Below are positions 46,254 to 61,910 of a stretch of DNA of 64,000 nucleotides, in pieces; the first letter of the stretch is position 1, and each line of letters opens with the position of its first letter. Below the pieces are notes generated by a model that did not search any database, was not told where the DNA came from, and worked only from the letters and a program-made list of their open reading frames with translations. Source of the stretch: Gordius sp. MW1 (lineage: Eukaryota; Nematomorpha; Gordioida; Gordea; Gordiidae); the NCBI GenBank assembly GCA_964036665.1, contig OZ038532.1, forward strand, positions 434,001 through 498,000. Direction: 5' to 3'. A program made the translations under genes and the position numbers.

Positions 46254-47621
46254 CTAGCCATTCATGTCTAGATTTTCAAACACCAAAGATCTAAGGTTGT
46301 AATGTTGTTTGGTATCGCAGCTCGAGAGGAGATAAGCAACGGAGCGCGAAACCAAACATGCATCCCAATCCTTTTGATTTGGTGTTTGTGGTGGTGAGCT
46401 TTCTGGTAGAACATTTAAATTCCAAAGGGATAGGGCCTGTATAAATGTTTCATCAAGTGAGTATGAGATTAGTTTGGCGACGATGGATTTTGAGGATAAG
46501 TGGGAGGATATAAATGAGGCCAAGGATAAGGAGCTTGGTGAACGAATTCCCAGAACCCCAGATTTTGTTGGTAATGTGGCTTGTAGCCAGGTGTTAGCAT
46601 CGAATGATAAGTTCAGGGTGGATTCGATGACAGATTTTATGTGGGTTTCGAAATTATGTAAAAATTGTGTATGCAAAAATGCGCTTGTGGATCGGAGGCA
46701 TAATAATATTTTGGCTATATTAAAGTAGTTTTTCAATATGTAAAATGCGTGATGGCGGGCATAAGCTTAAAAATTTCATTTTTACATTTTAATTTTTAAG
46801 GTTATCGTCGAGATAACTTCTTAAGCACTCAGGACCGTTTATTGGAGAACCTAGTAAAAATACCTCGTCCTTCTCAAGGCGTAGAAAAGATGCAAAGAAC
46901 GGGTGGATGTCAGTTGTGCTGTCAGAATAAATTTCGCATTTTGTCGCGCTTAAAGATAGGTTAAGTTTTATGTAAATAGTATTCATTAATGATGTTAAGA
47001 GCTTTGATTAGCTCTTCCGTGGTGCCTGATAGAGTGGCATCGTCGAGATACCATACGTTTAACTTTAAATTGCATTTTTCCTTGATTTCATCTATTAATG
47101 GTTTGATGGCCATACAAAATCAGGGGGGGGGGGCCAAGGGGGTCCCCCTGTTGAATGCCGTGCTGAATCAATTAAATAATGCCCGAATTTTAGGATAGAG
47201 GGTGTCCCATAACTTAAAAGGATATAATTAGCATATTTAGGATAAGTCTCGATAAAAGTTTTAATAAAGGAATCTCTGTTTAAGTTATTAATAGCGTTTA
47301 AAAAATCTAATTTTAAAAAAGACTCATTGGGTAATAGATTTTCGAGGGTCAATCTTGCGGCGTGGTTGCTATTTCATACCCTCCTTTGACCCCGAAGCCT
47401 AGCTGGTGAGGCATTAGCGATAGGGTTAAATTTGGTTTAATTGCTTTGCATATTATTTTAGAGATGATTCTTCTAAAAACTCCGCCGATAGCGATCGGTC
47501 TCAATGTTTTTATCGTGTACCCATACACGAAGAATGAAATTAGCGTATCCGGAGATACAAGTATACAAAGACTAAGCCAGATGTTTACTTTGTTTGTAAA
47601 AGGTATAGACGCCGCCGCCAC
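46254..47621 (-). pseudogene. retrotransposon RT core, fragmented
   Basis: Pieces in different frames: RPIAIGGVFRRIISKIICK and HQLGFGVKGGYE (47499-47380), FLKLDFLNAINNLNRDSFIK (about 47330-47270), the QQGxPLGPP region spoiled by a poly-G run near 47125, the YLDD region at about 47040, and FLHNFETHIKSVIESTLNL onward (46736-46254). At least three frameshifts. The insertion at 47511 removes continuity with the upstream RT. Confidence 0.75.
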
Positions 47622-48057
47622 ACGTCTCTCCTTTTCTAATTAAGTTTAGTACGCATATTAAATCCCCCCCCCGACGCGCTGATATTATTTATTTTATCCC
47701 CATATATGATTGTGTATCACTGATAATATGCCTGAGTCATTATGATAGTACGGGGATATCTTTTAGATATTAATTAATTTATTCTTGGTTGTATTTGTGT
47801 AATAGAAATAAAGTTTATACACAAGAGAGATTTTAGTTTAATAATACGACATTTTTACCGGGGAGAAGGTTGGTTTTCCCCGGCCCCCTATCATCCAGTA
47901 AAATCTCCCCAATATATCTCTAAAAACTCCCCAATATATTCTAAATGACCTATCCCCCTTTTCATCAATTTAATCCTGCCACGAATATTCTTCCCAAGTT
48001 ATTCTGGGTCCAACAAGTTTTTAATCATATCACATAAAAATGCCTGGATATGAAATT
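47514..48057. repeat. left arm of 544-bp palindrome
   Basis: Reverse complement of 48117-48660 over 544 bp. The only difference I found is AAAATCTCCCC against the arm's AAGATCTCCCC (near 47903). The outer end CGTGTACCCATACACG is itself a hairpin. Contains CCCCCCCCGACGCGC and CGTATCCGGAGATAC, shared with 49079-49582. Confidence 0.93.
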
Positions 48058-48116
48058 GGCGCCGGAAAGGTGGAATCGAACCACTTCGCCGTTAAGCGAC
48101 TACAGGTTTGAAGCCT
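48057..48116 (-). tRNA. 3' portion of tRNA-Sec, truncated
   Basis: Read on the minus strand it is AGGCTTCAAACCT (anticodon stem and loop, anticodon TCA), a long variable arm with TCGC / GCGA stem, GTGGTTCGATTCCAC (T arm), the acceptor 3' strand, and a final CGCCA. These are the hallmarks of animal selenocysteine tRNA. The 5' acceptor strand and D arm are missing, so this is not a functional gene. The encoded CCA shows it was copied from mature tRNA, not from a tRNA gene. Confidence 0.85.
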
Positions 48117-48660
48117 AATTTCATATCCAGGCATTTTTATGTGATATGATTAAAAACTTGTTGGACCCAGAATAACTTGGGAAGAATATTCGTGGCAGGA
48201 TTAAATTGATGAAAAGGGGGATAGGTCATTTAGAATATATTGGGGAGTTTTTAGAGATATATTGGGGAGATCTTACTGGATGATAGGGGGCCGGGGAAAA
48301 CCAACCTTCTCCCCGGTAAAAATGTCGTATTATTAAACTAAAATCTCTCTTGTGTATAAACTTTATTTCTATTACACAAATACAACCAAGAATAAATTAA
48401 TTAATATCTAAAAGATATCCCCGTACTATCATAATGACTCAGGCATATTATCAGTGATACACAATCATATATGGGGATAAAATAAATAATATCAGCGCGT
48501 CGGGGGGGGGATTTAATATGCGTACTAAACTTAATTAGAAAAGGAGAGACGTGTGGCGGCGGCGTCTATACCTTTTACAAACAAAGTAAACATCTGGCTT
48601 AGTCTTTGTATACTTGTATCTCCGGATACGCTAATTTCATTCTTCGTGTATGGGTACACG
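48117..48660. repeat. right arm of 544-bp palindrome
   Basis: Inverted copy of 47514-48057, starting AATTTCATATCCAGGC directly after the tRNA segment and ending at GGGTACACG. Arm lengths are equal to the base. Confidence 0.93.
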
Positions 48661-49078
48661 CATATTAAAATGCTGAGAATTCCTCATTTTAGATGGATTT
48701 CAGAACGACAATAACAGAATTATCCAATAAAAAGAAATTCATAGAGCCGGGATTCAGTTACCTATAGAGCGGGGAAGAAAATTATTATTGGATTATTCCA
48801 GGAGTATTCCCACAAGCCATAGATGAGGTATTTATAATTACATCCCGTTGGCCATGAATACTTAATTTTTCAAAAGAAGAGACCACGTGATTGCTTTGAA
48901 GGATACACATGTCGTATATAATAATTTTTGGATAGTTAGTATAATATTTTTGATATTGTTACTATTAATATCATGTAAACCCATAATTAGAACGTTGTTG
49001 ATAAAAACCATCCGATTGCATGATATCAATTATTCTTTTATCCACCCCTGGTCCTAATTTTTTTTGGAAAACCGCAAG

Positions 49079-49582
49079 GTATCGTATCCGGAGATACGAA
49101 GATATTTCCCCCCCCCCCCCCTGTTCTTTTATAAAAAGAAACGCCGCCGCTCACTATACGTGGTACGTATGTTACTTTTTCTTTCCCCCATGCCCCCTGA
49201 CACAAAAGGTTAATTGATTGTAACATCTGTGTACTGAATATATACATAGAACTTTATTCCTTTACATTTAATTTCTAGTACGCGTATGTTATCCCCCCCC
49301 CCGACGCGCTTATACGTATTTGTTATTTCTACCAATACGCATCATTGATTTTTACATACTCGAGAGTTGCGTGATTTTATTCATTAATAAATTTATTCTT
49401 GGAGATAAATAAAATACATAAAGGACCTAAAGAAAGAATTAAATGGTGAGTCCCCCCTTTGGGGGGGGGACAAGGTTTATCACTTTAGTGACCAATATTT
49501 CCCCCAATTCTAGCAATGATAATTCCCCCTTCCTTCAAATCATTTTTATTCATATCTTATATTCCTTTTTAAAGATATGAAA
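49079..49582 (+). repeat. diverged 3' LTR-like sequence
   Basis: Shares with the left LTR, in order: CGTATCCGGAGATAC, GCCGCCGC, TAGTACGC, ATCCCCCCCCC followed by GACGCGCT, AATAAATTTATTCTTGG, and the end GATATGAAA. The sequence between landmarks is substantially different, unlike the near-identical palindrome arms. Confidence 0.6.
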
Positions 49583-49782
49583 GTTTTGTTTGGTTTTTCG
49601 ATAGCAAGTAACTTTGCCCCAAAGACTATCGGTCGTACTTCCTGGGGAATGTTGCTATTAATGATTAGATTGCAAAAATTTGTTAGGGCAGTGAGTAAAA
49701 CAGGAGAGTTAATGTTTTCAACTTTTATGAGATCTTGAAGATAGATTGGTTTAATGCCATCCAAACCTGCAGCAGAATCCAT
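49546..49782 (-). pseudogene. retrotransposon RT N-terminal segment
   Basis: Encodes AAGLDGIKPIYLQDLIKVEN and then VRPIVFGAKLLAIEKPNKT, RT motifs 0-2 of the element at 45.6-50.6 kb. The frame enters the LTR insertion at 49587 and continues at 47505. Confidence 0.8.
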
Positions 49783-49919
49783 GGGAAAAGAATGGATAGC
49801 TTCACTTATGTCTAAGGACTTTAAAATTATGCAGGATGGTGTAAGGAGGAAGGTATATTGTGAGTAATGTTTGTGGTGTTTTGCTAAGAGTTGTTGATAC
49901 TCCTGACTAGGGGTTACAA

Positions 49920-50560
49920 TTAGATTATTACCTCCAAAAGTCTCATAGCCCCTTTGATGTTAAAGGAATTAATTTTCCTTGAAATCCTATTTGCCGTTTG
50001 TTTTGGAGTAAAAGGCTTTAATTCTCTCTCTGAATGTGTGTAAGGCTCAAGGGTATCATTTACATTAAAATTCAAAATATCCTTTTTAATTTTCTGTGAT
50101 AAATTAGACTCTTTAGTTTGAGATGGAGCCAAAATATGATAAGAAAATTTGATAAGTTTTTCCCATGCTGTGATGTTGTGTGGGTCACTAATAATGCTGT
50201 TAAGCAAATTTATCAAAAATTGTTGCATGCAAGGTTTGGCTCCTCTTGGAATTCTTGAAATTGTGGGGGTGAAGTCATGTGTTAAAAGGACTTTACTCCA
50301 AGTTGAATCAAGAGGCTCATCGATAAAATAAACATTATTAGGAGTAGCTGGGAATGTATTAGAGTTAGGTGTAATATCAATATTATTATTAGATTCAATT
50401 TCTAATGCTGTAGGAGGACATATTATACTTGGGGGGCAGCTTACCAGATGAAGGGCATTTAGCCAATAATGGGCCATGGTGGACAAAACAATTTTTTTTG
50501 TTTAAACAAATGTTTCTCTTACATGTAGGGCATAGAGATTTAAGTGCTACCATGGGTGTA
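49920..50560 (-). pseudogene. retrotransposon N-terminal region
   Basis: Probable start ATG near 50552 (MVALKSLCPTC). A Cys/His cluster CPTCKRNICLNKKNCFVHH lies at the beginning, followed in another frame by a Ser/Pro/Asn-rich region and PFTPKQTANRISRKINSFN. There is no apurinic-type endonuclease domain here, which fits an element that carries its endonuclease at the C-terminus. Confidence 0.65.
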
Positions 50561-50642: not shown

Positions 50643-51101
50643 ACCCCGCGTTCGTGATGACGCGCGAAGCGACAAAAAGCGAAGTGAATTTTTGTGCTAA
50701 TTTATCAAACTTTTTATTATTTTTCTTAATATCTTATATTCATCGTGAATTTTATCATATATCACGAAAATAACAATTGTAGATATGAGGTGTATATAGT
50801 GAAACCGCAGACAATTATTTTCGCCTGCGGCAAAAAGCGAACGAAAATAATTTTTTTACCATTGCGCGAAAAGTACAAAAAGATATGTATCTTAATTTTC
50901 GTTCGCTTTTTGCCGCAGGCGAATATAATCGTCTTCGGTTTACTATGTATACCTCATATTTACAATTGTTATTTTCGTGATATATGATAAAATTCAGAAG
51001 ATGATTATAAGATATTAAGAAATATAATGAAAAGTTTAATAAATTAGCACAAAAACTCACTTCGCTTTTTTTCGCTTCGCGCGTCATCACGAACGCGGGG
51101 T
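50643..51101. mobile_element. foldback element, ~205-bp arms
   Basis: Ends ACCCCGCGTTCGTGATGACG and its complement at 51101. The arms are ~205 bp, imperfect, with a ~50-nt centre. They include GCGAAGCGA / TTCGCTTCGC and CGCCTGCGGCAAAAAGCG in both orientations. No coding capacity. A similar terminus stands alone at 52365-52422. Confidence 0.88.
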
Positions 51102-59939: not shown

Positions 59940-61103
59940 ACTTGAGATCAAAAGACCTATCGCTATTGGCGGAGTATTTAGGAGGATTATTTCGAAAATA
60001 ATATGCAATAAAATTAAACCGATTCTTTCCATCAACCTAAGTCCACACCAATTAGGTTTTGGAATAAAGGGAGGCTGCGAAGCTGCTAGTCATGCCGCTA
60101 GGCTAGCCCTCGAATTCATACCATCGGACCATTGCATGGTCAAATTAGACTTTGCTAACGCTTTCAATTGCATTCGTAGAGACGTCCTTATTAAAAATTT
60201 TCTCGAGGATTTTCCAGAGTTCCATAACTACATCCTATTAAGTTATGGCTCAACATCCTTTTTAAGATTTGGGGATTCTACAGTTAAATCAACTGAAGGT
60301 ATCCAACAGGGTGACCCATTGGGTCCGCCATTATTTTGCTTAGGTATTCAAAGTTTAGTAGAAAAAATATCGCACGAATGCGACCTATTATTAAATATAT
60401 GGTACTTGGACGATGCCACCCTTTGTGGCCATCCTCGCGAAGTTTTTAAAGCTATCAAAATTATAAAAGAATTCGAACCAATTTTAAAACTTAGACTAAA
60501 TGAGACCAAATGTGAGATCTTTCAACCCCCTGACTACACATTATATCCCCACGTTACCCCTTTTTTAGCAATCAAGAAAGACGCTATGTGCCACCTTGGA
60601 TCGCCCATAGGCGGTAGAGTTGGACTCGCTACTTATTTGGAGAAAAATCTCTCTATTTTAAAGTCAAAATTAGATCTCTTAAAGTGTCTGCCTTCACACC
60701 ACGCTTTTTACATAATAAAAAACTATTTTAATATTTCAAAGATTCAGCACTGTTTTCGCTCTTCAAGTGCTTTTTTACACTCGGAAATTTTAAACCTCTT
60801 CGAACAAAATATTAAATCTATTTTACAATCTATTTTAAATATTAAATTCAATACTCATAGCTGGTTACAAGCTTCCCTACCAACCAAATCGGGTGGTTTA
60901 GGGATTCGCTCACCGGCCTCAATATCTCTAGTCTCCTTTATTTCATCTTATAAATCCGTACAAGATACCATTTTTAAGTTGTATCCGGTTAAAGAAGATC
61001 CGCTTCTACCCATTGCTTTAGCTACTTGGGAAAACAACACCAATCCCGAAACACATTTGCCACAAACCTCACGACAAAGAGATTGGGATGCCGGACTTGT
61101 GTT
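59940..61103 (+). pseudogene. reverse transcriptase domain, third copy
   Basis: Open frame from about 59940 through the RT palm and thumb to the hAT insertion. The first in-frame ATG (60136) lies in the middle of the RT, so it is not a true start. Catalytic YLDD is present at about 60400-60411. The polymerase domain itself has no stop in this copy. Confidence 0.85.
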
Positions 61104-61910
61104 CAGAGATCAGATTAACCGGCCCGGCCCGCTGCCCGAACAGGCCCGGCCCGGCCCGTGGGCCGGTGTCGGGCCGGGCAACTGTCATAAATTTTTTTTT
61201 CGGGCGGGCTCGGGCGGGCACGAAGAAGACAGCATTCGGGCAATTCGGGCTTAATGAGATTTTTTAGATAGTGTATTTTTTTGTTACTTTTCATTAAATT
61301 GCATATGAAAATGCTAAAAAATCGCCATCCGTCCCCAAGTTATTTTTACAATTTTTGCCAGAACCCCTTTATTTCCATCAAGTCCCTAGCTAGGTTATGA
61401 AAAGGATTAAAATATTTATATATATGCAGCCCTTTCATTGTTCATAATTCGCATGTGCCGTCTATACTTAGTACAAAAACGTCACGGCCAAATTGATACA
61501 ACGCCTGAAAGTGTTAAATTTCATTATAATATCATTTAATTTTTTTAAACAAATGATTTAACAAGGCTTCTCCAATTCGCTCTTATTATTCCCTTATCAC
61601 TCATCGCTATCGCTAAGCTCAAATATTTTAGAAAGACCAAATACTACGTTTTTTGACCAATTAGGATTAAAATTAAAGTACAAAAGTTTCATTTGAAAAA
61701 ATCATTCGACTTTTAAATATTGAAAGAATTTTAGGTCGCAAAATTTCGGGCCTAACAGGCAAATTTAATATTTCGGGCCGGGCATTTCGGGCAGCATTAA
61801 TGTTTCGGGCGGGCTCGGGCGGACACCAGAAGGGTTCGTGCGGGCAATGAGGTTCGAGAATTGAACCGGGCAGGGTTCGGGCAGAAAATTCCTAACAAAT
61901 CTGACCTCTG
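61104..61910. mobile_element. CGGGC-rich hAT-type MITE, complete
   Basis: 807 bp. Terminal inverted repeats CAGAGATCAGATT and AATCTGACCTCTG (one mismatch). Perfect 8-bp target duplication CTTGTGTT at 61096-61103 and 61911-61918, the hAT signature. GC-rich blocks (CCCGGCCCG runs, CGGGCGGGC) lie inside both ends, with an AT-rich centre and no transposase. Removing one duplication and the insert restores the retrotransposon reading frame (GLV then LHSVDYL), which confirms the boundaries. Confidence 0.93.

Follow-up and report, generated by a model that had tools for sequence, protein, structure and literature searches.

The window analysed here is a 64,000-nt stretch of the Gordius sp. MW1 genome (contig OZ038532.1). 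At 47511-49582 it carries a single insertion of 2,072 bp, with GTTTT on both sides as a 5-bp target-site duplication (TSD). The insertion is a composite of LTR A, an anti-tRNA-Sec segment, an inverted LTR A and the 3' part of a TRIM-like family, A', in this order. The features are the following:

46611 to 50487, minus strand: flanks examined (46611-47510 and 49588-50487), the split reverse-transcriptase frame being one of the three frames of the stretch
47506 to 47510, no strand: left target-site duplication, GTTTT
47511 to 48056, plus strand: LTR A (5' LTR), starting with TATCGTG and ending with GATATGAAA plus T; at least 39 further matches in the genome and one complete copy of the element (L004)
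48057 to 48116, minus strand: 3' part of tRNA-Sec with CCA, 60 nt; the minus strand is the tRNA sense, and the first bases are the primer-binding site
48117 to 48660, minus strand: second LTR A, inverted, with one extra A at its start and a few nucleotides missing at its outer U3 end
48661 to 49079, plus strand: 3' 419 bp of the A' internal region, with a purine-rich tract at its end, before the LTR
49080 to 49582, plus strand: LTR A', the 3' LTR of the composite
49583 to 49587, no strand: right target-site duplication, GTTTT

The insertion splits a reverse-transcriptase-like frame, and removing it together with one duplicate leaves an open frame across the flanks (..KLLAIEKPNKT/LRPIAIGGVFRRIISK..). 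The reverse-transcriptase nature of this frame was assigned by eye and from a 296-bp alignment, with 67% DNA identity, to a part of the window that overlaps an ORF with the Pfam domain RVT_1.

The original prediction, made from the sequence of the window, had placed an LTR palindrome in 47511-49582. These limits proved to be the exact bounds of the insertion, marked by GTTTT, but its final 922 bases (48661-49582) belong to family A' and not to family A. The predicted 544-bp inverted arms with a single mismatch are present: by exact count they occupy 47514-48057 and 48117-48660, with 543 matches in 544 nt. The LTR ends are separated by 60 nt (48057-48116), and the arms by 59 nt if the shared end base is counted. 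No TSD was seen by eye around the palindrome alone (47511-48660), and the TSD encloses 47511-49582. To the right, 48661-49079 is identical (419/419) to the 3' part of the A' internal region, with L065 as the reference copy, and leads into LTR A'. The inverted LTR A meets the A' strand in a joint with a 1-nt overlap (G), and A' breaks off 196 nt before reaching its 5' LTR.

Read as its reverse complement, the spacer is the final 60 nt of tRNA-Sec with CCA, and 60 of 60 bases are identical to the gene-derived sequence, as had been predicted. A covariance-model check confirmed a real tRNA: the host tRNA-Sec gene, at C1:17842328-17842413 on the minus strand, scores 78.9 bits against the Rfam tRNA-Sec model (gathering cut-off 47) and has the anticodon TCA and no encoded CCA. 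A chance match is excluded, since it covers 60 bases. When the 212-Mb assembly (12 contigs) was searched with this 60-mer, at least 42 matches were found (best 40 of 46 candidates scored). Four Rfam tRNA-Sec matches lie above the cut-off, and an origin of the segment from a tRNA gene was rejected, since L010-L012 carry both CCA and an LTR end and only the gene locus, L009, lacks CCA. Rfam miRNA matches over the palindrome were also set aside; they are below their own cut-offs and reflect the hairpin shape.

Concerning family A, the search of the assembly for full-length relatives recovered L004, a complete copy of 1,798 bp with LTRs of 543 and 551 bp, an internal region of 704 bp and the TSD GAAAC. 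Its primer site follows the 5' LTR, which bears out the prediction that the left LTR of the window is a genuine 5' LTR with a tRNA-Sec primer site, and its purine tract (GGTAAAGGGAAAGA) precedes the 3' LTR. LTR A has at least 39 further LTR-length matches at 96-99% in the genome (best 40 of 529 candidates scored), and the A' internal region has at least 41, the window's own included (best 40 of 211 candidates scored). Family A presents the direct LTR pair, short internal region, primer-binding site and purine tract of the TRIM type, and the longest open stretches, 75 aa in L004 and 68 aa in L065 (A'), agree with the lack of coding capacity of such elements. Target duplications of 5 bp border complete or near-complete copies, L004 (A, GAAAC), L044 (A', ATTCT) and L065 (A', ATATA), as well as the window composite. 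The A' primer site is TGGTGTCAGAAG in L065, with one extra base in L042, and fits the CCA end of tRNA-Leu, so the composite appears to unite a family primed by tRNA-Sec with one primed by tRNA-Leu. Within 6-kb loci of some copies there are RNase H and integrase domains and a DUF7041 protein, which are hints only of an autonomous partner.

The terminus of LTR A is GAAA in the integrated 3' LTR and GAAAT ahead of the primer site. In HIV-1 one tRNA-derived base is kept at the end, and the difference between GAAA and GAAAT would fit the loss of two end bases, provided that one tRNA-derived base is kept here too. The additional A that separates the inverted LTR from the tRNA copy fits an uncut end, as if the terminal A of the tRNA had been retained. 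It precedes the second LTR in the window and in L027, L039 and L048, is ambiguous in L056 and is absent in L040; at the same junction L011 retains GCCA, and L021 and L071 can be read as retaining CACCA.

Among known elements, family A resembles TRIM elements such as ta-TRIM of tapeworms (PMC4558846) in its LTR pair, primer site, purine tract, lack of a long frame and short TSD. It differs from ta-TRIM in its longer LTRs (543-551 bp in L004), in ends that are not TG..CA and in its primer, which is tRNA-Sec for A, whereas ta-TRIM and A' fit tRNA-Leu. A further observation is an array of family A LTRs at C6:15337615-15343631, spaced by 1,248 bp, in which the third LTR is followed by a 60-nt tRNA-Sec copy (L003/L022) and one more LTR lies about 2.3 kb further on.

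In canonical copies of family A and of another family, D, found via a search with TGGCGCC, the primer site lies directly at the LTR end. The primer region is TGGCGCCGGA-TTAAAAAAGT-AATCGAACCA in canonical A, TGGCGCCG-AAAATGTTGGA-AATCGAACCACTTCGCCG in canonical D and TGGCGCCGGAATC-ATCGAACCACTTCGC in a copy of family B. In the three families part one fits the acceptor end of tRNA-Sec and part two fits its T-loop, extending into the variable arm in D and B; this second box was not seen by eye in the A' copies L065 and L042. In sequence terms, A, B and D have a bipartite site with a T-arm complement, as in Ty1 and Ty3, which likewise combine a short acceptor-end site with a second T-arm site (PMC5371799). 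The present families differ from Ty1 and Ty3 in that the primer is tRNA-Sec and the second box lies directly downstream, repeated in some D copies. In L067 and L070, of D type, there are tandem repeats of AATCGAACCACTTACTAAAAC, each unit being the complement of the tRNA-Sec T-loop (part two).

In some copies the spacer between the two parts is replaced by tRNA-derived sequence (L004 and L005 in A, L059 and L061 in D), and the hybrid L016 has 17-19 tRNA bases followed by canonical sequence. Such inheritance of tRNA sequence sets these copies apart from Ty1, in which, going by the title of a 1994 paper, it is reportedly not inherited. As the replacement requires at least 17 copied tRNA bases in A and about 20 or more in D, the D copies are stronger evidence that part two can accept strands that were extended beyond A58. 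The second box could catch over-extended DNA, and it probably does so for moderately over-extended strands; ends lying beyond it would give dead-end products like the window insertion.

The junction in the window is not isolated. Among the matches listed, 36 places match tRNA-Sec over at least 34 nt (42 matches minus the gene at C1:17842327, four in loci already counted and C5:9062921, of 33 nt), with 14 kinds of LTR end counted by eye. The copied length ranges from 34 to 90 nt; the whole tRNA is present in L023 (all 90 nt) and L036 (all 90 with two changes), and the complete LTR-CCA joint is missing in L047, L050 and L055. Judged by eye, the tRNA copy is followed by an inverted LTR of the same family in the window, L011, L027, L039, L040 and L056 (truncated in L064), by an inverted LTR of a different family in L021, L048, L057 and L071, and by a direct LTR copy in L014, L025 and L037 (partial in L029 and L054); the remaining copies continue into internal, unrelated or unplaced sequence. 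At L054 (C7:15844000-15852000) a 71-nt anti-tRNA-Sec segment stands tail to tail with a 54-nt sense tRNA-Leu segment and an inverted LTR, and this is the fusion of two differently primed cDNAs at their tRNA ends.

Ten other composites were inspected for a TSD. A clear one of 5 bp was present only in L026 (LTR D, 61 nt, internal region, LTR D; GTATT) and L037 (LTR C, 56 nt, LTR C; AACTG), none was seen in L011, L025, L027, L039 or L048, and the outer ends of L014, L040 and L056 were not settled. Some of the composites lacking a clear TSD may have entered by end joining.

A58 of the tRNA was compared between tRNA-Sec and tRNA-Leu copies. In the tRNA-Sec copies, the base opposite A58 is T in 33 of 33 places with this base left open in the search pattern (one place has G57 changed), although some of these places are family D or similar, where the base could have been passed on together with the second box. 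A58 is also correct in 46 of 46 rows of tRNA-Sec copies. By contrast, the 75 places with CCA-bearing tRNA-Leu copies, not all merged for near-duplicates, have C opposite A58 in 62 cases and T in 13, and never A or G. A58 is thus read as A in 33/33 against 13/75 (p=2e-17, counting copies that are not proven independent).

A second tRNA-Leu pattern gave 41 places (e.g. L076-L114), five taken as genes and 36 as copies, the latter including L103 and L104, in which one CCA base is changed. The five sequences taken as genes (L089, L091, L105, L106 and L114) lack CCA and all have A58; ARAGORN names only L106 and L114, and L105 is cut short. Among the copies, 28 of 36 read A58 as G, at 18 different 14-base LTR ends and with different end points. 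After merging L098/L099, L093/L094, L108/L109 and the two arms of L113, the misread fraction is 26/32 against 0/33 for tRNA-Sec (p 9e-13). A58 is the only mismatch present in more than two tRNA-Leu copies. L083 and L113 keep the tRNA-Leu intron despite their CCA, and both are misread at A58. The end points of the tRNA-Leu copies cluster at 46-51 nt; G37, which may carry the known modification m1G37, would be the 51st base.

With laboratory reverse transcriptases, m1A causes arrest and mixed misincorporation, and misincorporation is efficient where U follows m1A (PMC4787781). This is the context of tRNA-Sec, so its correct reading argues for an unmethylated A58, provided that the enzyme of these elements behaves similarly. 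The contrast suggests, as far as genomic copies can tell, m1A58 on the primer tRNA-Leu and little or none on the copied tRNA-Sec. The hybrid L016 fits a stop at A58, and some tRNA-Sec may be methylated.

An improbable explanation, though one with some points in its favor, is that A58 of tRNA-Leu is read as G through inosine or through inherited primer sites, and not through m1A. Only C (62) or T (13) stands opposite A58, against the mixed misincorporation of laboratory enzymes at m1A (PMC4787781). Moreover, several of the 28 misread copies share the LTR end ccatcttag, and near-duplicates are present. Against it, the 28 misread copies stand at 18 different 14-base LTR ends with various end points, and all five sequences taken as genes have A58. 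Furthermore, we know of no inosine at tRNA position 58.

Returning to methylation, the genome could be read more broadly as a record of tRNA chemistry, and we consider this reading to have an even chance of being right. A58 would be methylated on tRNA-Leu and largely unmethylated on tRNA-Sec, the second box of the Sec-primed families would have evolved because tRNA-Sec gives no stop, and the intron-bearing L083 and L113 would place the modification of A58 before splicing.

For the window, the family A tRNA-Sec primer site, the 60-nt copy, the joins to the inverted LTR and to A' and a 5-bp duplication like that of complete copies are all observed. The insertion is very probably a fixed, mis-assembled reverse transcript, that is, over-extended plus-strand strong-stop DNA that was mis-joined at the second strand transfer and then integrated normally. 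Plus-strand strong-stop DNA of A would have run beyond A58 because its primer tRNA-Sec presumably lacked m1A58, and the second transfer would have failed because the over-long 3' end had lost its match to the minus-strand copy of the primer site. This end (LTR A plus 60 tRNA nt) would then have been joined to the U5 end of another A molecule, with the last tRNA nucleotide (A) still attached, and this second A molecule would have linked it to an A' minus strand left incomplete within the same particle. Once completed, the composite DNA would have integrated with the outer U3 end of LTR A at the left and the U5 end of A' at the right. We infer the order of these joining events, which one product cannot reveal. 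The original prediction of a fixed aberrant transcript, with the primer over-copied and joined to an inverted LTR, is supported by the 60 tRNA nt followed by inverted LTR A; it had missed the TSD shared over 2,072 bp and the dozens of similar junctions.

This step is known from HIV-1. According to a 2026 review, m1A58 stops plus-strand strong-stop DNA, and on unmodified tRNA the DNA is copied to the tRNA 5' end, only shorter products being active (PMC13191261). A counter-case is one study in which A58U tRNA-Lys3 supported HIV-1 normally, with no extra tRNA sequence in the proviruses (PMC1785368). The likeness lies in the step, the predicted over-extension and the inactivity of over-long products; the difference is that the HIV-1 cases are intermediates in vitro or in mutant cells (PMC13191261, PMC1785368), and here there are fixed insertions of many families.

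A snap-back hairpin, in which an over-extended plus strand folds on its own tRNA-like stem and copies its own LTR, would need one molecule only, and it is a doubtful but serious competitor for the window. It fits L011 exactly (whole tRNA, acceptor-stem pairing, then GCCA-LTR) and also L113, with anticodon-stem pairing in tRNA-Leu. Self-primed snap-back would be expected to give a palindrome like L113, whose midpoint falls on the intron and anticodon stem of tRNA-Leu. In the window it would be possible through a 3-bp GCC/GGC pairing, but it predicts GCC-AATTTC where the sequence is GCC-T-AATTTC; L027 and L039 are off by 1-2 nt, and one molecule cannot unite the different LTR families of L021, L048, L057 and L071. 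More than one route operates, mis-joining being preferred for the window and snap-back explaining L011 and L113 better.

The original prediction had also proposed a half-tRNA primer, which would account for a copy of just 60 nt. A half-tRNA serves as primer in copia, and in Ty5 a cut in the anticodon loop creates the internal 3' end used for priming (PMC5371799). End points at 59-62 nt account for 10 of 33 events of at least 36 nt against a uniform expectation of 2.4, in an interval picked after seeing the data; the events derive from 46 rows, without 11 rows of 34-35 nt, L054 (a canonical primer site) and one of L062/L063. However, this cluster lies just before the D stem of the Rfam structure, where a pause would suffice. 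The ends spread over 34 to 90 nt, with the whole tRNA in L023 and L036, and the primer sites of the copies found begin at the CCA end; the LTR is joined to this end in its intact form, unlike Ty5 and copia. A half-tRNA primer is hence very unlikely, and 60 nt is just one end point among many. Perfect long palindromes do occur as a sequencing artefact, but an assembly or chimeric (fold-back) read is scarcely credible here, as the arms differ at one base (543/544), the outer flanks differ, a TSD is present, the sequence to the right passes into a different family, and elsewhere in the genome there are junctions that stop at different points of the tRNA.

Regarding the literature, the search returned no tRNA-Sec-primed LTR element and no genomic record of tRNA modification, a weak negative as subscription papers were mostly outside its scope; several genome papers among those listed do mention selenocysteine tRNA as well as LTR retrotransposons. 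The primer-tRNA list in the 2026 review (PMC13191261) is without tRNA-Sec, and also without tRNA-Leu, so it is incomplete. Helenus elements are likewise short LTR elements with tRNA sequence, but in Helenus this sequence is part of the LTR and has no complementarity to the primer site (PMC10886601); here the tRNA segment adjoins the U5 end of the LTR from outside and is a copy of the primer. In HIV, over-copied primer DNA is regarded as a dead end, and the fixation of such products in this genome means that the step can be studied by sequence alone. If the A58 contrast holds, tRNA modification states could be sought in the insertions of any genome. This genome would then be a positive case against a review of mammalian endogenous retroviruses, which concluded that primer-site mutations did not match the positions of tRNA modifications (PMC7472051).

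Two other features of the window can be mentioned. The region 60136-61254 contains a reverse transcriptase ORF (Pfam RVT_1) whose nearest named match is a hairworm (Gordionus) protein with 44% identity, and the left flank of the insertion is related to 60136-61254 but has diverged from it (67% over 296 bp). At 50746-50996 there are two nested pairs of inverted repeats (58 nt at 93% and 47 nt at 94%), which resemble a small hairpin element.
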